64,000 nt of DNA from Halapricum desulfuricans (lineage in GTDB: Archaea > Halobacteriota > Halobacteria > Halobacteriales > Haloarculaceae). The stretch lies in NCBI RefSeq assembly GCF_017094525.1, contig NZ_CP064788.1:2775030-2839029 (forward strand), given 5' to 3'. The position numbers were made by a program, and so were the translations under genes. Below are positions 7,769 to 64,000 of the stretch, piece by piece (the first letter of the stretch is position 1; each line of letters begins with the position of its first letter). A model generated the notes under the pieces. The model saw nothing but the letters and a program-made list of their open reading frames with translations. It was not told the DNA's origin and ran no database searches.

Positions 7769-9028
7769 ATGGACGAGCGGGCAGGCGGCCCGAAGCCGCG
7801 GCTCGGGCGTCGGGCGTACCTCAAGGGAGTTAGTCCGATCGTGGGGGTCGGAGCAGCTGGGTGTCTTGGGGTCGGGACTGACTCCGGTCCGATCCGTGTC
7901 GGCAACCTGTCCCCGTTTAGTGGTGGCCTCGGGTGGATCGGCCCCAACTCACGACGCGGTATCCGGACCGCGCTCGCGGGCAACGGCGGCGTCAACCGGG
8001 CCACGATCGACGGCAGGACCGTCGAGATCGTCGAGCGAGACACGGAAACCGATCCTGAGACGGCGATCGCTGGCTTCCGCTCACTCGACGACGCGGGCGT
8101 CGAGACGATGGTCGGCCCATCGAGTGTCGTGGCGGCGAGCCTTTTCCGGCCCGCGCTCACTGCTCGTCTGTCGTTCGTCTCGCCGGTATCGGGGACGACG
8201 CAACTCGACAACATCGGCGGGACGTACATCTGGCGAACAGTTCCATCGGACACAGTCGGCGCTCGCGCACAGGCTCGATTCGCATATCAGGAACCAGGCT
8301 GGCGACGGATGGCACTAGCATACAGAGATAGCAAAGGGTCCTACAGCTTCTCGAAGGCCTCCGGGGAGTACTTCTCTTCGCTCGGTGGCGACGTCGTAAC
8401 TGAAGTCGAGCTCAACCCGAACGCCACCGATTACCGGTCGGCTGTCCGAACGATTCAGGACGCGGGAGCCAGTGTGGTGTCTCTCACTGCCGGTACCACG
8501 ATCACCGGCCAGTTCATTCGCGACTACGTCTCGCTTGGCGCGGACGACGACTTCGCGATCTTGCTCGGTAACGACGTCCTGACGTCGGCGTTTATCGATG
8601 AGATGGGGGCTGACACAATGGAGGGGATGGTGGGACAGACGCCGGCTCCTGGTCCAGCCATCGATGCTTTCACCGAGCGATACGACGCGATCCACGGCAC
8701 GCCCCCCGGCATATTCGCGGCGGCGGCGTACGATGCGATGAATCTCATTGCACTCGCGTTCGTCACGGAAGGCGAGCCAAACCGGCGTGCCGTCCCGGAC
8801 CATCTCCGGAAGATCGGGAACCCACCGGGAACAGAGGTTTCGACGTTTGCAGCCGGGAAAGCGGCGCTTGAGGCCGACGAGCCGATCAACTACGTCGGTG
8901 CCGCGACCCCACAGAACTTCAACGAGTACGGCGATCCGCTCGGTTCGTTCGCGATCAATCAGGTCGTTGATGGCTCCTGGCAGACCGTCACCACCTACAC
9001 CGCTGAACAACTATCCGAAAGAGGATAA
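7769..9028 (+). CDS. Branched-chain amino acid-type substrate-binding lipoprotein
   Basis: A 419-residue type I periplasmic-binding-protein fold (Peripla_BP_6, LivK/BasB-like). The N-terminus carries a twin-arginine-like RRAYLKG followed by a short hydrophobic run and a lipobox GAAGC, so it should be anchored outside the membrane. Ligand-fold landmarks include IRVGNLSPFSGGLGWIG near the mature start, TMVGPSSVVAASLF, and AAAYDAMNLIALAF near residue 320. No permease or ATPase genes are adjacent. Instead a HAMP-type histidine kinase starts 53 bp downstream (or 11 bp with the alternative GTG), so the protein probably presents a ligand to a sensor rather than to a transporter. The actual ligand is unknown. 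Confidence 0.85.
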   Translation: MDERAGGPKPRLGRRAYLKGVSPIVGVGAAGCLGVGTDSGPIRVGNLSPFSGGLGWIGPNSRRGIRTALAGNGGVNRATIDGRTVEIVERDTETDPETAIAGFRSLDDAGVETMVGPSSVVAASLFRPALTARLSFVSPVSGTTQLDNIGGTYIWRTVPSDTVGARAQARFAYQEPGWRRMALAYRDSKGSYSFSKASGEYFSSLGGDVVTEVELNPNATDYRSAVRTIQDAGASVVSLTAGTTITGQFIRDYVSLGADDDFAILLGNDVLTSAFIDEMGADTMEGMVGQTPAPGPAIDAFTERYDAIHGTPPGIFAAAAYDAMNLIALAFVTEGEPNRRAVPDHLRKIGNPPGTEVSTFAAGKAALEADEPINYVGAATPQNFNEYGDPLGSFAINQVVDGSWQTVTTYTAEQLSERG

Positions 9029-9080
9029 TTATGTATGGGTGGCGAGTGAACAGGACAGTCACCTGGCGACTGCTCCAGCA

Positions 9081-10826
9081 ATGTTCGATACACTCACGCC
9101 CCACGGATGGAATCTCAAGCGGAAGGTGATCCTGGCGTTTGCTCTCACGGCGTTGCTCGTTGCCGCGACCGGCGTAGTCGGGTTTGTCGCCGTTTCGACG
9201 GTGTACGATAATTCTAACGCAATCAATACGAATGCCGAAACTGTCGATACGACCAAAGAGCTCCTGATCGCCATCGAGCAGGAACAGGTCGCAATCTATG
9301 CCGACATTGCGGGGGAGCCAGGAGCAAGAGAGGAGTTTGAAACTGCCGCGTCAAACTTCGATCGGTGGGCCGACGAGATGAATGTCGAGCGACTGGATGG
9401 CGAACAACGGCAGCTGTTCACAGCGCTCGAGGCCAAACACGCGCAGTACACGAGACTTTCCCGGGAAGTATTCAACGCGACACAAGCCGGCGATATCGAC
9501 CGGGCTAACACCATCATCGAAACGCAACTCGATCCGCTGTCCGTCGAGATGCGCGGTATGGCGTATTCACTTCAGGGACTTGCTCTCGAAAACAAACGGC
9601 AAGCTACGACCCAAGTCGCCGATACGGCCGAGACGACACAACGACTCGTCCTGTTGTTGAGCGCGGGTGCGTTCGGAGCCGCGATCCTCATTGGCTTGTT
9701 CGTCTCCAACCGACTCACAGAGCCAGTCAACCAGCTCTCGGCGTCCGCGATCTCGATCAGCGAGGGTGACTTCAGTACCGAGATCGACGAGTATCACGCG
9801 GACGACGAAATCGGACGGATGGTCGAAGCGTTCGGCGAGATGCGGACAAATCTCGAAGGCGTGTTCGCCGAGCTTGACGCCATCAGCCAGCACCTTCAGC
9901 AGGGCGATCTCGACCACGAAATCGACACCGACTACCCCGGCACGTACGGGGAGATTATGCACAACATCGACGAGAGCATCACACAGCTCACCGCGAGTTT
10001 CGATGAAATCAGAGACGCCAGCGAGAACCTACGGGCTGGCGAACTCGATTACGACATCGATACCGACCGGCCGGGCGAGTACGGGGCCGTGCTGTCGGAT
10101 CTCGAGGGTGATCTGGCTCAGCAACGCGACCGCGAGCGAGAACTCCAACGGCAAAAAGACCAACTCGAGGACTTCGCGACGATCGTCGCACACGACCTGC
10201 GAAACCCGCTTACCGTCGCTCGGGGACGGATCACACTGCTCGAAGACGAGTACACGAACCCGACCGCAGCGCCCCACTTCGATGCCATTCAGCAGGCTCA
10301 CACTCGGATGGAAACACTCATCGACGATATACTGTCGCTGGCACGAGCCGGACAGCCCATCGGGGAGAAAGAATGGGTGGACGTCAGCCAGGTCGCCCGC
10401 GATGCCTGGGCAACGATCGACGCGCCGGGAATGACGTTACAGACGACCGGCCACTTCGAGGTCAAAGCGAGTCGTGAGCGATTACAACAACTCCTCGAGA
10501 ACCTGTTCGGTAACGCAAACGCCTATGCGGGAGACGAGGTGACTATCTCGGTCGGCTCGATCGAGGCGATGCCGACGACGACGAGGGATTCGACCGCCAA
10601 TGAGTCCGGCTTTTTCGTCGCCGACGACGGGTCCGGCTTCGACGAGGGGCAACAATCGAAAGTATTCAAGCCCGGCTACACGACCGACGATTCTGGAACC
10701 GGCTACGGGCTCTGGATCGTCCAGACGATCGCTAACGCCCACGGATGGCGGGTCAGCGTCACTGAGAGCGAGACTGGCGGAGCGAGGTTCGAGGTCACGG
10801 GCGCACGCGTTCGCGAGCACCGCTAG
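9081..10826 (+). CDS. Transducer-like HAMP histidine kinase
   Basis: 581 residues. The N-terminus (GWNLKRKVILAFALTALLV) has TM1, then an extracellular helical bundle (about 40-185), TM2 (about 192-212), a HAMP domain and two extra HAMP-like units carrying DYPGTYGEIM and DRPGEYGAVL. These closely match the transducer at 60228-62597. Instead of an MCP signalling domain it continues into a kinase: H-box IVAHDLRNPL with His371, a dimerisation helix, and HATPase_c with VADDGSGF and GTGYGLWIVQTIANAHG. ATG 9081 is chosen by alignment with the transducer start; GTG 9039 is the alternative. It is co-directional with the binding lipoprotein, its likely input partner. Confidence 0.85.
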   Translation: MFDTLTPHGWNLKRKVILAFALTALLVAATGVVGFVAVSTVYDNSNAINTNAETVDTTKELLIAIEQEQVAIYADIAGEPGAREEFETAASNFDRWADEMNVERLDGEQRQLFTALEAKHAQYTRLSREVFNATQAGDIDRANTIIETQLDPLSVEMRGMAYSLQGLALENKRQATTQVADTAETTQRLVLLLSAGAFGAAILIGLFVSNRLTEPVNQLSASAISISEGDFSTEIDEYHADDEIGRMVEAFGEMRTNLEGVFAELDAISQHLQQGDLDHEIDTDYPGTYGEIMHNIDESITQLTASFDEIRDASENLRAGELDYDIDTDRPGEYGAVLSDLEGDLAQQRDRERELQRQKDQLEDFATIVAHDLRNPLTVARGRITLLEDEYTNPTAAPHFDAIQQAHTRMETLIDDILSLARAGQPIGEKEWVDVSQVARDAWATIDAPGMTLQTTGHFEVKASRERLQQLLENLFGNANAYAGDEVTISVGSIEAMPTTTRDSTANESGFFVADDGSGFDEGQQSKVFKPGYTTDDSGTGYGLWIVQTIANAHGWRVSVTESETGGARFEVTGARVREHR

Positions 10827-56360: not shown

Positions 56361-56479
56361 CCTTCCGGTGTAGGGTTCCCGGGGTCTACACCCTTTGGGG
56401 AATGTATGTCACGACTCCCGGATCTCGGGATGTCGTTCCCGCAAGTGCGTACAGCAGTATCGCGGCAAAAGCCCGCGCG

Positions 56480-56689
56480 CTAGTCGTTGCTGACCATGAC
56501 TTCGCTGGCCTTGATCACGGCAGCGACCTCATCGCCGGGTTCGATATCGAGCCGTTCGAACGAGTTGCGCGTGATCGTCGAAGTGACCTCCTGGCCGTCG
56601 CCGAGTTCGATCACGACTTCGGCCATCACTTGCCCGGTTTCCACGTCTGTGACGGTACCTTCGAGATGGTTTCTGGCGCTGAGTGCCAT
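56480..56689 (-). CDS. Molbindin-like TOBE-domain protein
   Basis: 69 residues: MALSARNHLEGTVTDVETGQ, EVTSTITRNSFERLDIEPGD and EVAAVIKASEVMVSND form one TOBE (Mop) domain, which binds molybdate or tungstate oxyanions as oligomers. It would buffer molybdenum for enzymes such as the reductase encoded at 27413-29728. ATG 56689 is preferred over 56692. A MITE lies only 24 bp upstream and must affect its promoter. Confidence 0.85.
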   Translation of the reverse strand: MALSARNHLEGTVTDVETGQVMAEVVIELGDGQEVTSTITRNSFERLDIEPGDEVAAVIKASEVMVSND

Positions 56690-56713
56690 CATCCAATTTA
56701 CCGGGTCATAGCA

Positions 56714-56829
56714 AGTTGAATGTTCCCCCGCGTGGGGGGACCCCTATGCTCACGAGAGCAAGCCTCCTGTTTCGAGGGGATGCAGATCCTTGAAACGCAG
56801 ATCCACCGTGTGCGGGGGAACATTCAACT
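56714..56829. mobile_element. 116-bp MITE with 18-bp terminal inverted repeats
   Basis: AGTTGAATGTTCCCCCGC at 56714-56731 is perfectly repeated in inverse at 56812-56829, and AGCA flanks both ends (56710-56713 and 56830-56833) as a 4-bp target duplication. The 80-bp interior codes for nothing and has short hairpins (GCTC ACGA GAGC) and a repeated GCAGATCC. This is a non-autonomous transposon; the parental IS is not in this window. Confidence 0.85.
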
Positions 56830-56902: not shown

Positions 56903-59791
56903 TCATCGAGAGCGGGGCAACTCGATTTTGACGCGGTTTCCGCTGGGATCGTTCTCCTCGAAGACAACCGTTCCGTCCGACCGCGTGACGATCCAGTACA
57001 CCAGCCACAGCCCGAGACCGCTCCCATGATAGAGCGGATCCACCTTCTCGCCGCGGGTGCCCACTTGCTGTTCCATATCCGGAATCGCCGGCCCGTTGTC
57101 CGCGATCTCGAGGGAGACGTGTTCATCGTCCCGGGAGACAGTCGTTTTCACGACTGGTGACGCCGTGTCGTTGTGTTGGATCGCGTTGACGAGGAGTTCT
57201 TCGACGGCCTGACCGATCCGGGACGACGCGACGACCGTGATGTCGTCCGGACAGTGGACGTGGATCGTCGCGTCGGGATAGTCTTCGGCGACCGACTGTG
57301 TGACGCGCTGGAGGAGATCGTTGATCTCGAAGGTGTCCTGAACGGGTCGCTCGAGCAAGACCTCCGTGATCATCCGCTGTTTGTTGGCCGTGTCCACGAG
57401 CTGGTCGCTCTTGGTGCGGATCGATTCGGCGTGGGTGGCGATCGTCCCGGACGTCGCGTCCTGAATAGCTTCGGCGAACCCTCGTATGACGTGTATATCG
57501 TTGCGGATATTGTGTCTGAGAACACGCTCGAGTACCTGCAGGTGCTGTTCGCGCTCCTTGCGCTCGGTGATATCACGCTGGGTTCCCAGCCAGCGGACTA
57601 GATCGCCGTCGGTATCGTAGACGGGTGTGACCGTGACCTGGCTCCAGAACATCGTGCCGTCTTTGCGGTAGTTGCGCAACTCCACAGTGGTCTGTTCCTC
57701 GTTGTCGATCGCCGCGCGGAGATCGGCTACCGTCTCCGGATCGGAGTCGGGGCCCTGGAGCAGCCGACAGTTCTCGCCGAGGAGTTCCGCCTCAGAGTAG
57801 CCGGTGAGATCGGTGAACGCCTCATTGATGTAAACCATCGGGTTGTCGTCTTTCGCGGGATCAGTCATTGTCAGGGGAATGTGGGCCTTGTCGATCGCCT
57901 GCCGGAGGCGGTATAACTCGTCTTGCTGTTTCCGCATCTCGGTGACGTCCTTGTTGACGGAAACGAAGTGAGTGGTCTCATCGCTATCGTCGGTTACCGG
58001 TGCGATCGTCTTGTTGACGACGTACCGGTCGCCCTGCTTTGTCGTGTTGATTAACTCGCCGTGCCACGTATCTCCCCTGAGGATCGTGTCCCACATCTCT
58101 TCGTAGAGTTCCTCGTCGTTTGCCTCCGAACGGAGGATCGCCGGCGTTCGCCCGACTGCTTCCTCGGCACTGTAGCCGGTGGTCCGTTCGAACGCCGGAT
58201 TGACGTATTCGATCGTTCCGTTGCAGTCCGTGATATAAATCGAGTGCGCCGAGGCCTCGATGGCGCGCCTGAAACGCCGGAGGTCCCACTCGCGCTGCTT
58301 GCGCTCGGTGATGTCCTTGTTCGTACAGATGAGTTTCCCGTCGTCGAGCCGGGAAAGCGTGAGCTCGTGGTGGACCCGCGTTTCGTGACGAGTTTGCCCG
58401 ACTGCTTCGCCTCGCCACTTCCCGGCGTCTTCGATCTCCGGGAACACCGTATTTTCGAACCGCGCGATTTCCGCTTCGTCGTAGAGACAGCGCCACGTCC
58501 GTCCGAGGAGGTCCTCGGGATCGTATCCGAAGACGTCGGCGTGGGCCTGATTCATGTAGATGAACTCGCCGGTTTCGTCGAGGAGAGCGATCCCCTCCAT
58601 CGACACTTCCATGGCCTCGGCCTGCGTCTCCAGGCGCGATTCGCGCTGCTTGCGTTCCGTGATTTCCTGAACGATCCCGATAGCACTCACCGGGTTCCCT
58701 GCGTTGTCGAACTCGAAATCGGCGTTCGCCCTGACCCACTTTGTCTCACCGCCATCCGTCACGATCCGGTGTTCGATGTCGTACGGTTCGCCCTCCTTTG
58801 CGGCCTGCCACTGCTTCGCGACGGCGTCCCTGTCGTCGGGGTGGACGTACTCCATATAGGTGTCCTCGTCGATACTCCGGGTACCGTCCGCGAAGCCCCA
58901 GATATCACAGATTTGCTCGGACCAGTACACCTCGCCGGAGCGAAAGTCCATAGACCAGTAGCCGAGATTCGCCACGTTCTGGGCCTTTTGAAGCTGGATC
59001 TCTCGCTCGCGGCGATCGGTAATGTCGGTGTAGACCCCCAACGCTTTCGATCCGCCGTTGTAGACCGCGTTCTGCAGAATGAAGTGCCGTTCGCCGCTGT
59101 TCGTTCGACGCGTGACTTCCTCGGAGACGAGTCGCCCGGTCGACTGGACGCGGTCGTTGATCTCCCTGGCGCGTTGCTGGCGGTCCTGTGGAACGATATA
59201 CGAATCGAGTGACTCCCCGATGATCTCCTCGGCAGAGTAGCCGAACGTCTCTTCGAACGCGGAGTTGACCTGTCTGACGATCGGCTCATCGGACTGGTAC
59301 TCGATCTCGACCGTCGGCTGGGGGAACTGTTCGAACAGGGTTCGAAAACGACGACGGTGCTCCTCTAGTTCGCGTTCGTACTGTTTGCGTTCGGTGATGT
59401 CCTGAACAACACCGACGGCAGTACCAGGCGTGCCGTCCTCATCACGCTGGACCGTCGCCCGCTGGCGGACCCACCGGGTGTCGCTGTCGTCCGTCACGAG
59501 CCGGTGTTCGATGTCGAACCCGCCATCCTCTCCGAGTGTGCTCCAGTTCTCCTCGACGACAGCTCTGTCACTTGGATGAACGCGCTCCAGAAACCGCTCG
59601 TCGGTGAGAGGTGTGTCCCTGGGCACATCAAGGAGCCGTTTGAGTTCCGCCGACCAGTACACCCGGTCGTCGGTCAGATCCCGCTCCCAGCTACCAAGGT
59701 TCGCGATGGCCTGTGCGTCTCTGAAGTGGGCGTCTCGGCGCTCACCCGAGTCGGACACGCTATCAGTCGAGGAGTCGTGTGATTTGGACAT
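56903..59791 (-). CDS. Six-PAS histidine kinase with a LOV-type PAS domain
   Basis: 962 residues, cytoplasmic. Six PAS domains lie at about 20-140, 147-262, 265-385, 388-500, 501-625 and 626-745, most ending in a DITERK-type linker. The sixth contains GENCRLLQGPDSD, the LOV core GxNCRxLQ with Cys675, plus LRNYRKDGTMFW and LGTQRDITERK with the conserved Gln, so FMN binding and a light-driven cysteinyl adduct are expected. The kinase core follows: H-box RVLRHNIRND (His760), N-box LLVNAIQHND, G1 IADNGPAIPD and G2 GSGLGLWLVYW. The gene is 23 bp after cheW in the transducer operon. Earlier PAS domains lack the LOV Cys. Confidence 0.88.
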   Translation of the reverse strand: MSKSHDSSTDSVSDSGERRDAHFRDAQAIANLGSWERDLTDDRVYWSAELKRLLDVPRDTPLTDERFLERVHPSDRAVVEENWSTLGEDGGFDIEHRLVTDDSDTRWVRQRATVQRDEDGTPGTAVGVVQDITERKQYERELEEHRRRFRTLFEQFPQPTVEIEYQSDEPIVRQVNSAFEETFGYSAEEIIGESLDSYIVPQDRQQRAREINDRVQSTGRLVSEEVTRRTNSGERHFILQNAVYNGGSKALGVYTDITDRREREIQLQKAQNVANLGYWSMDFRSGEVYWSEQICDIWGFADGTRSIDEDTYMEYVHPDDRDAVAKQWQAAKEGEPYDIEHRIVTDGGETKWVRANADFEFDNAGNPVSAIGIVQEITERKQRESRLETQAEAMEVSMEGIALLDETGEFIYMNQAHADVFGYDPEDLLGRTWRCLYDEAEIARFENTVFPEIEDAGKWRGEAVGQTRHETRVHHELTLSRLDDGKLICTNKDITERKQREWDLRRFRRAIEASAHSIYITDCNGTIEYVNPAFERTTGYSAEEAVGRTPAILRSEANDEELYEEMWDTILRGDTWHGELINTTKQGDRYVVNKTIAPVTDDSDETTHFVSVNKDVTEMRKQQDELYRLRQAIDKAHIPLTMTDPAKDDNPMVYINEAFTDLTGYSEAELLGENCRLLQGPDSDPETVADLRAAIDNEEQTTVELRNYRKDGTMFWSQVTVTPVYDTDGDLVRWLGTQRDITERKEREQHLQVLERVLRHNIRNDIHVIRGFAEAIQDATSGTIATHAESIRTKSDQLVDTANKQRMITEVLLERPVQDTFEINDLLQRVTQSVAEDYPDATIHVHCPDDITVVASSRIGQAVEELLVNAIQHNDTASPVVKTTVSRDDEHVSLEIADNGPAIPDMEQQVGTRGEKVDPLYHGSGLGLWLVYWIVTRSDGTVVFEENDPSGNRVKIELPRSR

Positions 59792-59814: not shown

Positions 59815-60231
59815 TCAGCTACCGGTATCGGTTATGACGTCGTTGACCCGGCGTGGCTCGACCCACAGCCTCTCGCCGATGACGCCGTGGACGTACTCGT
59901 TGTCGGTGACGGGATCGACCTCCGGGTCCGGGACCGTCGTGACTTCGTGGGCGCGGTCGACCAGCCAGCCGACCTGCTGACCCTCCTGCTCGAAGATGAT
60001 AACGTGATCGGCGTCCTGGCTGTCGGCAGCCTCGATCACCGAACCGGGGTCGACGACCGGCGTCTCCTCACCTCGGTACTCCATCGTCCCCACGACCTGT
60101 GGGGGACCCTCCGACGTCGGTGTGACAGACTCGTGTTTGACCACTCCTCTGATCCTGCTAATCTCCACACAGCACCACTCCTCGCCCAGCGTGAACGTGA
60201 GGACTGCCGCCGACGGGCCGGCCTGTGTCAT
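59815..60231 (-). CDS. cheW: CheW-like chemotaxis coupling protein
   Basis: 138 residues of the CheW fold: VLTFTLGEEWCCVEISRIRG, GTMEYRGEETPVVDPGSVIE and VIIFEQEGQQVGWLVDRAHE. It would connect transducers to CheA. Its start ATGA overlaps the transducer stop by four bases, so the two are translationally coupled. No cheA, cheY or other che gene is in the window; this adaptor may serve a remote kinase. Confidence 0.87.
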   Translation of the reverse strand: MTQAGPSAAVLTFTLGEEWCCVEISRIRGVVKHESVTPTSEGPPQVVGTMEYRGEETPVVDPGSVIEAADSQDADHVIIFEQEGQQVGWLVDRAHEVTTVPDPEVDPVTDNEYVHGVIGERLWVEPRRVNDVITDTGS

Positions 60232-62597
60232 CGTTGCCCCTCCCGTGGGGTGGTCGTCTCGCCCGGTGACGTGTGGCCGCCGTCGGCCTGTGCCCGGGCC
60301 GACGGGCCACTCTCGCCCTCGCTCGCCAGCGACGCGCCGGCGGTGACACTGTCGCGGATCTCGAACATCGAAACCTGGTCGTGGAGGGTCTCGGACAGCG
60401 CAGACAGGTCTTGGACGCTCTCGGAAACGCCCGACAGTGACGAGGTCTGTTCCTCGGTCGCGGCCGAGACGTTGCTCGCCTCCGCCGCCGTCTGCTGGCT
60501 CACGCTCGACACCTCATCGACCATCGCGACCACCTCTTCGGAGGATGCCGCCTGATCGTCGGTCGCATCGCTGATCTCCGTGATGCCGGACTCGGCCTCT
60601 TCGACGGCATCGGCGATTTCGTCGAACATCTGGATCGCCTCCTCGATAGTTTTCGACCCCCGGTCGATGCGCTCGCTCATAGCCTCCATCCCCTCGACCG
60701 TCTCGGCCGTGGTCGACTGGATTTCGGTTATCCGGCGTTCGATCTCGGTCGTCGCGTCGGCGACTTCCTCGGCGAGGGTCTTGATCTCGTCGGCAACCAC
60801 GGCGAAGCCTTCGCCGGCCTCGTCGGCGCTTGCCGCCTCGATCGAGGCGTTCAGCGCCAGCATATTCGTCTGCTCTGCGATCCTCGTGATCATCTCGACG
60901 ATATCGCCGATCTCGTCCATCTTTTCATCGAGTGCCTTGACCTGACTCGACGTCTCTTCGGCCTGGGCCTCGATGGACTCGATCTCCTCAGTCGCTTCAT
61001 TGGCGTACTCCTGGCCGGTTTCGCTCCGCTCGACGGCTGTCGTCGCCGTCGCAGCGACCTCTTCAGCCGATGCGGCGATCTCCTCGACGGTTGCCGACAT
61101 CTCGTTCATCTCGCTGGCTACCTCCTGGAGGTTCTCGCTCTGGGTGTCCGCGCCGTGTGAGATCTCCTCGACCGACTCCGCGACTTCCTCGCTTGCGGCC
61201 TCGATCTCTTCGGTACTGCTGGCGACCTCCTGGCTGGAGGTCGCGACCTCGTCCGCGATATCCTGAACAGTCTCGATACTGTCGCTCAACTGTTCCAGGC
61301 CCGATTCGAGATCGGTGAGAACCTCGCCGTACATCCCGGGATAATCAGTGTCGAGACGACGGTCGAGCTGGCCCGTTTTGAGCCCCTCGCTGGCGGTCGA
61401 GATCTGCTCGAAGCCCGCCGCGAGCTGTGCCGTGCCGTCGTCGATGTTCGCCAGCACGGTCCCGTACTGACCGGGCTGGTCCGTGTCGATGTCCCGATCC
61501 AGTTTCCCGGTCTTGAGCCCTTCACTGGCGGTCGAGATCTGCTCGAAACTCGCCGACAGTTGCGTCGTGCCTGCGGCGAGGTTGTCCAGCACGTCCCCAT
61601 ACTGACCGGGCTTGTCCGTCTCGATCGACTGCTCGAGCCGGCCGTGCTTGAGATTGTCGCTCGCCCGCTGGATCTCCTCGAAACTGACGGTGAGCTGATC
61701 GGTCCCCGAATCGAGACTCCGCATTATCTCGCCGTACGTCCCGGGGTAGTCCGTCTTGAGATCACGGTCCAGCTCCCCGGTTTCGAGGTTCCGGCTGACG
61801 GCTTCGAGTTCGGCAAAGACGCCACGAAGGTTCGTCTGCATCGTCTCGAACGCCTCGACCATCCGTCCGAGTTCGTCGCTTTCGACGTGATCGTCGAGAT
61901 CGATGTCGAGATTGCCCTCGCTGGCGGCGCGAGCGGCGTCGGACAGCTGGGAGACGGGCGTCATGATCCGCCGTGAGACGAACAGGCCGATAGCGATAGC
62001 AACGACGAACGCTCCGATCGTCAGGCCGATTACCTCGGTCTGTGCGTTCTCGGTCGTCTGATCGGCAGCAGCGACCTGTTCGTCCAGATCCGCCTGTGCG
62101 GACTGCTCGATCGAATGGGCGTTCTCTTCCATCGACGTGCCCAGCGACTCCATCTCGCTGGCCGTCTGTTCGGTACTGGCGTCGTCACCGGCTTCGACAG
62201 CCCTGAAGAACTCCTCGCCGAGCGTGTTGTACTCCTCGTGTTGGGACTTGATGTCGGAGAACTCCGCCTGCTGGTCGGCGGAGAGGCTCGCCGAGTCCAG
62301 TTTCTGGGCCTGCTCGTCGAACAGCTCGTTGGCCGCCTCGAACTCCTGTCGGGCGTCGGATGCGCCGAGCTGAGCGGCCAGAACGGCTTCCTGCTGTTGC
62401 TCGACCGCCACGATAAGCGACGCTGCGGCGTCCATCTTTTCACCGTCCTCCGCGATCACGTGCACCTCCTCGTCGACGGCACCAACGGACGTGTATCCGA
62501 TCGCGCCGGTCACGGCGACCAGCGCGGCCACGAGGACGAACGCGAGAATCAGTTTCGGTCGCAAGTCGAGTCTGTCAATCGTCAATTTCTCAATCAT
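60228..62597 (-). CDS. Halobacterial transducer (MCP) with poly-HAMP array
   Basis: 789 residues. TM1 (about 15-37, KLILAFVLVAALVAVTGAIG), an extracellular four-helix domain (40-190), TM2 (about 195-215), HAMP, then four HAMP-like repeats of about 47 residues, each with a D-Y/Q/K-PG-x-YG signature (TDYPGTYGEIM, TDKPGQYGDVL, TDQPGQYGTVL, TDYPGMYGEVL). The C-terminal MA domain has the hairpin tip GEGFAVVADEIKTLAEEVAD. First gene of the transducer-cheW-kinase operon. ATG 62597 aligns with the kinase at 9081. The ligand is unknown. Confidence 0.93.
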   Translation of the reverse strand: MIEKLTIDRLDLRPKLILAFVLVAALVAVTGAIGYTSVGAVDEEVHVIAEDGEKMDAAASLIVAVEQQQEAVLAAQLGASDARQEFEAANELFDEQAQKLDSASLSADQQAEFSDIKSQHEEYNTLGEEFFRAVEAGDDASTEQTASEMESLGTSMEENAHSIEQSAQADLDEQVAAADQTTENAQTEVIGLTIGAFVVAIAIGLFVSRRIMTPVSQLSDAARAASEGNLDIDLDDHVESDELGRMVEAFETMQTNLRGVFAELEAVSRNLETGELDRDLKTDYPGTYGEIMRSLDSGTDQLTVSFEEIQRASDNLKHGRLEQSIETDKPGQYGDVLDNLAAGTTQLSASFEQISTASEGLKTGKLDRDIDTDQPGQYGTVLANIDDGTAQLAAGFEQISTASEGLKTGQLDRRLDTDYPGMYGEVLTDLESGLEQLSDSIETVQDIADEVATSSQEVASSTEEIEAASEEVAESVEEISHGADTQSENLQEVASEMNEMSATVEEIAASAEEVAATATTAVERSETGQEYANEATEEIESIEAQAEETSSQVKALDEKMDEIGDIVEMITRIAEQTNMLALNASIEAASADEAGEGFAVVADEIKTLAEEVADATTEIERRITEIQSTTAETVEGMEAMSERIDRGSKTIEEAIQMFDEIADAVEEAESGITEISDATDDQAASSEEVVAMVDEVSSVSQQTAAEASNVSAATEEQTSSLSGVSESVQDLSALSETLHDQVSMFEIRDSVTAGASLASEGESGPSARAQADGGHTSPGETTTPREGQR
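61300..61750. repeat. Tandem coding repeats (HAMP units) in the transducer gene
   Basis: Blocks about 141 bp apart share long stretches such as CTGGCGGTCGAGATCTGCTC (61389-61408 and 61527-61546 region). They encode successive HAMP-like units. The near identity at DNA level suggests recent unit duplication or gene conversion. Confidence 0.7.
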
Positions 62598-63467: not shown

Positions 63468-64000
63468 TCACGCCGTTGGAAGTTGGACGGTAACGATGGT
63501 TCCACGCGGCCCGTTCTTCTCAATCATCAGCGTCCCATTGGAGTGGTCGACGAGCAGGTTGACAAGCCAGAGTCCGAGTCCTTTCCCGTGATATAAAGGC
63601 TGCACCTCTTCGCCCTTGATCAGGACTTGTTGTTCGATCGCCGGGATCCCCGGGCCGTCATCTGCCACGCGAATCTGAACCGTCCCCCCGTCGCAGTCAA
63701 GACCCACCGTTACGGATGGGGCGGCTCGATCCGAGTGAATGATGGCGTTCTCGACGAGTTCCTCGATGACTTTCTCGAAGGAACTGACTGCAAACGCGGC
63801 TTGTGCGTCGGGTACGTCGACCGAGATGTCGGCATCTGGATAGCGGTCACGAAGCCCCTCTATCGTCGTGGTAATGAGTGGGACGATATCACGTGATACA
63901 GGTTGCGGGTTATCAGCCAGGAACTTCGTGACGTCCCGTTCCTTGTCTGTTGTTTGTATGAGTCGCTCACCACTCCGAATAATCGTCTCTGCGTATTCCT
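63468..64000 (-). CDS. Histidine kinase, C-terminal part (5' end outside window)
   Basis: The frame is open to the window edge, giving 177 residues: end of the dimerisation region (RSGERLIQTTDKERDVTKFL), then HATPase_c with N-box VIEELVENAIIHSD, G1 VADDGPGIPAIEQQ and G2 GKGLGLWLVNLLVDHSNGTL. The region closely resembles the corresponding part of the LOV kinase (AVEELLVNAIQHND, GSGLGLWLVYW), so it is a paralogue. Its sensor domains lie beyond 64000. Confidence 0.9.
   Translation of the reverse strand, partial: EYAETIIRSGERLIQTTDKERDVTKFLADNPQPVSRDIVPLITTTIEGLRDRYPDADISVDVPDAQAAFAVSSFEKVIEELVENAIIHSDRAAPSVTVGLDCDGGTVQIRVADDGPGIPAIEQQVLIKGEEVQPLYHGKGLGLWLVNLLVDHSNGTLMIEKNGPRGTIVTVQLPTA

Follow-up and report, generated by a model that had tools for sequence, protein, structure and literature searches.

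Known archaeal phototaxis proceeds via sensory rhodopsins, and the locus described here raises the question of whether a soluble flavoprotein could give the haloarchaeon Halapricum desulfuricans a further light input, to a histidine kinase and perhaps, through its gene neighbors, to movement. The locus lies within a stretch of 64,000 nucleotides of contig NZ_CP064788.1 (assembly GCF_017094525.1; hereafter the window), in which a kinase gene ends its series of PAS domains with a candidate LOV domain (Table 1). Judged by sequence comparison and structural modeling, its product is probably a soluble multi-PAS histidine kinase gated by light through a genuine FMN-binding LOV domain.

Table 1. Features of the LOV kinase locus (positions in the window)
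Feature	Position	Strand	Basis
Soluble sensor kinase, 962 aa, PAS x5 - LOV - DHp - HATPase	56903..59791	-	ORF, Pfam, NCBIfam
Five N-terminal PAS domains, residues ~24-624	57920..59722	-	
LOV domain (PAS6), residues 626-751	57539..57916	-	phmmer, motif, AlphaFold, structure match
Adduct-forming Cys675 codon (predicted)	57767..57769	-	motif and coordinate arithmetic
Ser717 codon AGC, replaces FMN-contact Asn (YtvA N104)	57641..57643	-	LOV alignment
Phospho-acceptor His760 codon, RVLRHN	57512..57514	-	motif, kinase alignment
HATPase_c, residues 857-961	56909..57223	-	Pfam, E=1.5e-14
CheW-like adaptor, 138 aa	59815..60231	-	
Htr transducer, TM - 4HB - TM - HAMP repeats - MCP signaling domain	60228..62597	-	
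Upstream 619-aa PAS kinase, 3' part	63468..63998	-	
TOBE-domain protein, 70 aa, downstream of kinase	56480..56692	-	

A single open reading frame encodes the kinase, with six PAS stretches (NCBIfam TIGR00229) and a HATPase_c domain, and no obvious membrane segment was seen in its sequence. The H, N, G1 and G2 boxes of a histidine kinase with HisKA-type DHp and HATPase_c domains are all present: His760 lies within VLRHNIRND, the N box (EELLVNAIQH) and the G2 box (GSGLGLW) are intact, and the G1 box (DNGPAIP), which varies among relatives, has Ala in place of the second Gly. Identification of the protein as CheA was rejected, as Hpt, dimerisation and CheW-like domains remained unmatched in a Pfam search of the whole kinase. 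No response regulator gene was found adjoining it.

PAS6 is a genuine LOV domain of an ordinary, already known kind. It contains the LOV motif GENCRLLQG at residue 672, a form of GXNCRFLQG that includes the adduct-type Cys675, followed by NYRKDG at 707 and GTQRDIT at 736 with Gln738; on sequence inspection, the LOV Cys motif was absent from all five N-terminal PAS domains. The closest PDB matches in a phmmer search were LOV proteins, namely YtvA (2mwg, E=2.4e-34), aureochrome and phototropin. An AlphaFold model built from 40 homologues reached a mean pLDDT of 96.2 and superposed on LOV structures with Z scores of about 20-22 and, for the closest, an rmsd of 0.5-1.2 A; its best structural match is the Brucella LOV domain 6ph2 (0.9 A over 123 residues), and it shares 46% identity with YtvA (2pr5) over 114 residues. 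A unique or chance match is ruled out by these PDB relatives, the fold match and the counts of LOV domains across the family. The six-PAS architecture, the LOV identity of the last PAS domain and the places of its landmarks (Cys675, NYRKDG and the Gln ahead of DIT) are therefore as the earlier note had read them from the letters alone. That note also made its case depend on the key FMN contacts, which is borne out for Arg676, Gln679, Arg692, Asn707 and Gln738, all of which are kept, and fails for the second contact Asn, which is Ser717. FMN binding and photochemistry of PAS6 are likely on the strength of these residues and the model.

The proposed direct connection of the LOV domain to the kinase core is likewise sustained. 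From D740 of the DIT motif to His760 there are 20 residues, a spacing shared by several haloarchaeal kinases whether or not their last PAS domain is a LOV domain, and a model of residues 620-962 (mean pLDDT 82.7) shows one unbroken helix from residue 742 to 779 that runs through His760. The shared spacing and the continuous helix indicate that the LOV domain uses the PAS-to-DHp coupling that is standard in this kinase clan. Blue light would generate an adduct between Cys675 and the flavin, Gln738 would pass the change to the C-terminal helix, and this helix would carry it without a break into the DHp helix that bears His760, thereby raising or lowering autophosphorylation. Blue-light gating of the kinase by such a route is likely, given the residues retained and the modeled helix.

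Several known photoreceptors resemble parts of this arrangement. In the artificial protein YF1, a helix also couples LOV to DHp, although its kinase is of the FixL type. LOV-HK of Brucella abortus is likewise a LOV-gated soluble histidine kinase with the closest LOV fold; however, its LOV domain is N-terminal with a PAS domain between LOV and kinase, and the haloarchaeal protein falls outside its equivalog (NF052306, blue-light-activated histidine kinase) with a score of 210 bits against the NCBIfam cut-off of 450. YtvA of Bacillus subtilis shares the flavin contacts except N104 but has a STAS output instead of a kinase. From archaea come ALovD-1 and the other Lake Diamante LOVs, which likewise are haloarchaeal LOV domains in PAS-rich histidine kinases, with an acidic surface and with the Phe position taken by Trp or Tyr; they differ in keeping FWN where FWS is found here, and taxis neighbors were not reported for them (PMC12202551). 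An archaeal LOV domain has been found photoactive at up to 3 M salt (PMC12202551).

The rarity that the earlier note implied was overstated, since haloarchaea commonly have LOV kinases and an archaeal LOV domain has already been characterized (PMC12202551). LOV domains were detected in 124 of 146 family genomes (E<=1e-30). The genome of H. desulfuricans itself encodes two more, one in a REC-PAS-LOV-PAS kinase and one in a Bat-type regulator. In a LOV tree, PAS6 belongs to a clade of ten haloarchaeal LOV domains (support 100/99), other members of which adjoin other kinds of transducers, either of a six-helix membrane type (G120, G123) or of a protoglobin type (G010).

With regard to the neighborhood, the gene order described earlier, a transducer and a CheW gene preceding the kinase on the same strand, is confirmed. 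The transducer start is best placed at the ATG at 62597, the version of the ORF caller running to 62708. The transducer and CheW genes share 4 bases (ATGA) at the transducer stop, and the kinase ATG follows 23 bases after the CheW end; such tight packing suggests that the three genes are co-transcribed. Upstream of the operon and beyond the window edge, on the same strand, lie a gene for a 527-aa PAS kinase and then one for a KaiC-like ATPase (L058:4498-9293), and in six relatives the same classes, KaiC-like ATPase and PAS kinases, are found with the orthologous transducer and with a LOV kinase. Downstream of the kinase, a 301-bp stretch bearing the TOBE gene (window 56420-56720) recurs with 97% identity at G000:C1:2039611-2039916, and this second copy adjoins another transducer-CheW-PAS kinase locus. 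Elsewhere in the window (8748-10826, plus strand), a membrane kinase has a 4HB-HAMP input half 38% identical to that of the operon transducer and fused to HisKA-HATPase, giving the same input a different output. The genome contains six CheW domains, and it seems to be common for a transducer to have a CheW copy of its own.

The transducer family of the operon is repeatedly accompanied by LOV genes. Orthologues, all 44% or more identical to it in the input half, occur at 23 loci, and at 15 of these a LOV gene is part of the cluster, in three arrangements. In type I (eight loci; G002, G003, G010, G022, G096, G097, G110 and G142), a REC-PAS-LOV-GAF-BAT-HTH_10 regulator is encoded upstream of the transducer, often together with CheW; these are LOV-bearing forms of Bat-type regulators (REC-PAS-GAF-BAT-HTH_10), whose output is DNA binding rather than a kinase. 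Type II (six loci; G011, G020, G076, G078, G100 and G114) comprises the transducer, a REC-PAS kinase, a KaiC-like ATPase, a 740-aa LOV kinase and usually another kinase, although single loci may miss some of these genes. The third arrangement is the transducer-CheW-LOV kinase cluster of the window itself. The LOV domains of the three arrangements occupy different regions of the tree and represent separate lineages. Across nine fully scanned genomes, a LOV gene lies within 8 kb of 8 of the 10 transducers of this family, the window's own locus included, compared with 11 of 120 others (Fisher p=1.8e-6, only a guide since the genomes are related). A general attraction of LOV genes to transducers was not supported: in the same genomes a transducer lies within 8 kb of 19 of 45 LOV proteins and of 10 of 31 non-LOV PAS proteins (p=0.26). 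PAS signaling proteins and transducers thus cluster generally, and the clusters are LOV-rich only for the transducer family of this operon. No report of a LOV-transducer-CheW cluster was found in the literature searched, subscription journals being outside its coverage.

The connection between light input and taxis that the earlier note had proposed is strengthened by the recurrence of LOV beside this transducer family and weakened in two respects, as part of the adjacency reflects general PAS-transducer clustering and the kinase is not CheA; what began as a guess has become a supported and plausible hypothesis. In the most likely arrangement, the transducer and CheW would feed the CheA array of the cell, the LOV kinase would bring signals from light and from its PAS domains to bear on the same behavior, and phosphotransfer would proceed to a separately encoded response regulator. 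On the other hand, a light-gated kinase unrelated to taxis, regulating expression or another process and placed here by the piling up of PAS, Bat-like and transducer genes in genome islands, is a serious possibility, if a shade short of an even one. It would account for the transducers near non-LOV PAS proteins, for a kinase devoid of CheA domains and for type I LOV partners that are transcription factors, and the genome also holds two modules of a Bat-like regulator without LOV, a soluble transducer and CheW (L194:4327-9793 and L200:3362-8933). These LOV-free modules, taken with the non-LOV PAS control, mean that adjacency by itself does not single out light. Such piling up explains less readily the excess of LOV genes beside this one transducer family relative to other transducers of the same genomes, their pairing through three arrangements from separate LOV lineages, and the packing of transducer, CheW and kinase as one operon. 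A taxis connection of the LOV kinase can accordingly be proposed from gene neighborhoods in tentative terms. More doubtful is the broader proposition that haloarchaea use LOV flavoproteins besides rhodopsins as taxis inputs, in which a transducer family with its own CheW would be served by LOV proteins recruited several times (as a kinase, as a Bat-like regulator or within a KaiC-kinase cluster), giving motility a blue-light or day-night signal.

The nearest precedents for a taxis connection are SRI/HtrI and SRII/HtrII, in which a haloarchaeal photoreceptor gene also stands beside a transducer gene; there, however, a membrane rhodopsin contacts the transducer, whereas here the candidate partner is a soluble flavoprotein kinase. 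H. desulfuricans has three rhodopsin genes, one of which overlaps a transducer gene as an SRII/HtrII-like pair (L198:4457-7479). If a taxis role of the LOV kinase is correct, the LOV-transducer-CheW cluster would add a soluble, flavin-based light input to archaeal movement, and the KaiC-like ATPase in some clusters might tie together light, clock-like ATPases and movement. The recurrence of LOV beside this transducer in many relatives makes a rhodopsin-independent light input to movement testable.

Light gating itself depends on a working flavin site, in which two motif deviations had been overlooked at first: Leu677 in place of the usual Phe, and Ser717 in place of the Asn of FWN. The equivalent residue of YtvA, N104, bonds the flavin C4=O. 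A pattern scan found FWS/FWT-type LOVs in 7 of 391 genomes of the class, including that of H. desulfuricans. A decayed domain, in which flavin binding or photochemistry was lost through N717S, along with Leu677 and Trp734, leaving PAS6 a structural or non-photic role, would fit the conservation of this Asn in 140 of 147 distinct LOVs (140 of 141 without six that were collected because of their FWS/FWT motif), the description of FWN as hyperconserved among archaeal LOVs (PMC12202551), and the fact that, of the six further haloarchaeal LOVs with FWS/FWT, two have lost the Cys as well. Decay is nevertheless improbable. Every other flavin contact is intact, the Cys is kept in four of those six, and Leu677 and Trp734 are less rare among haloarchaea, whose LOVs repeatedly show Leu, Ile or Met in place of that Phe and Trp at the position of residue 734. 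Furthermore, flavin is still bound by mutants of the same Asn: YtvA N104A and N104D keep their photocycle with moderately faster recovery (PMC4161478), and the YtvA-derived EcFbFP retains fluorescence with N104I or N104S, at a reduced level in N104S (PMC4041573). The second contact Asn can therefore be regarded as canonical rather than LOV-defining, given that natural Ser LOVs exist and N104S keeps FMN binding. Because FMN binding and the photocycle survive in N104 mutants, PAS6 is expected to work as a photoreceptor, perhaps with altered properties, in which FMN would stay bound and the lifetime or yield of the adduct may change; by analogy with these mutants, loss of function through Ser717 is possible but not the best guess.

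Redox sensing is also known for flavin-PAS domains, yet a flavin-binding PAS6 used for redox or oxygen sensing instead of photoreception, in keeping with the generic PAS domains that form the remaining inputs of the kinase and with one related LOV kinase that adjoins a globin-coupled transducer, is very improbable, considering that the adduct Cys, unnecessary for a redox-only role, is retained and that three rhodopsin genes indicate an organism that lives with light. For the favored reading of a light-gated kinase, the natural Asn-to-Ser variant offers a test of which flavin contacts are truly required for LOV photochemistry. LOV-like domains at L054 and L056 have Arg or His in place of the adduct Cys and Thr or Ser in place of the FWN Asn, and may be LOV domains in the course of losing their photochemistry.
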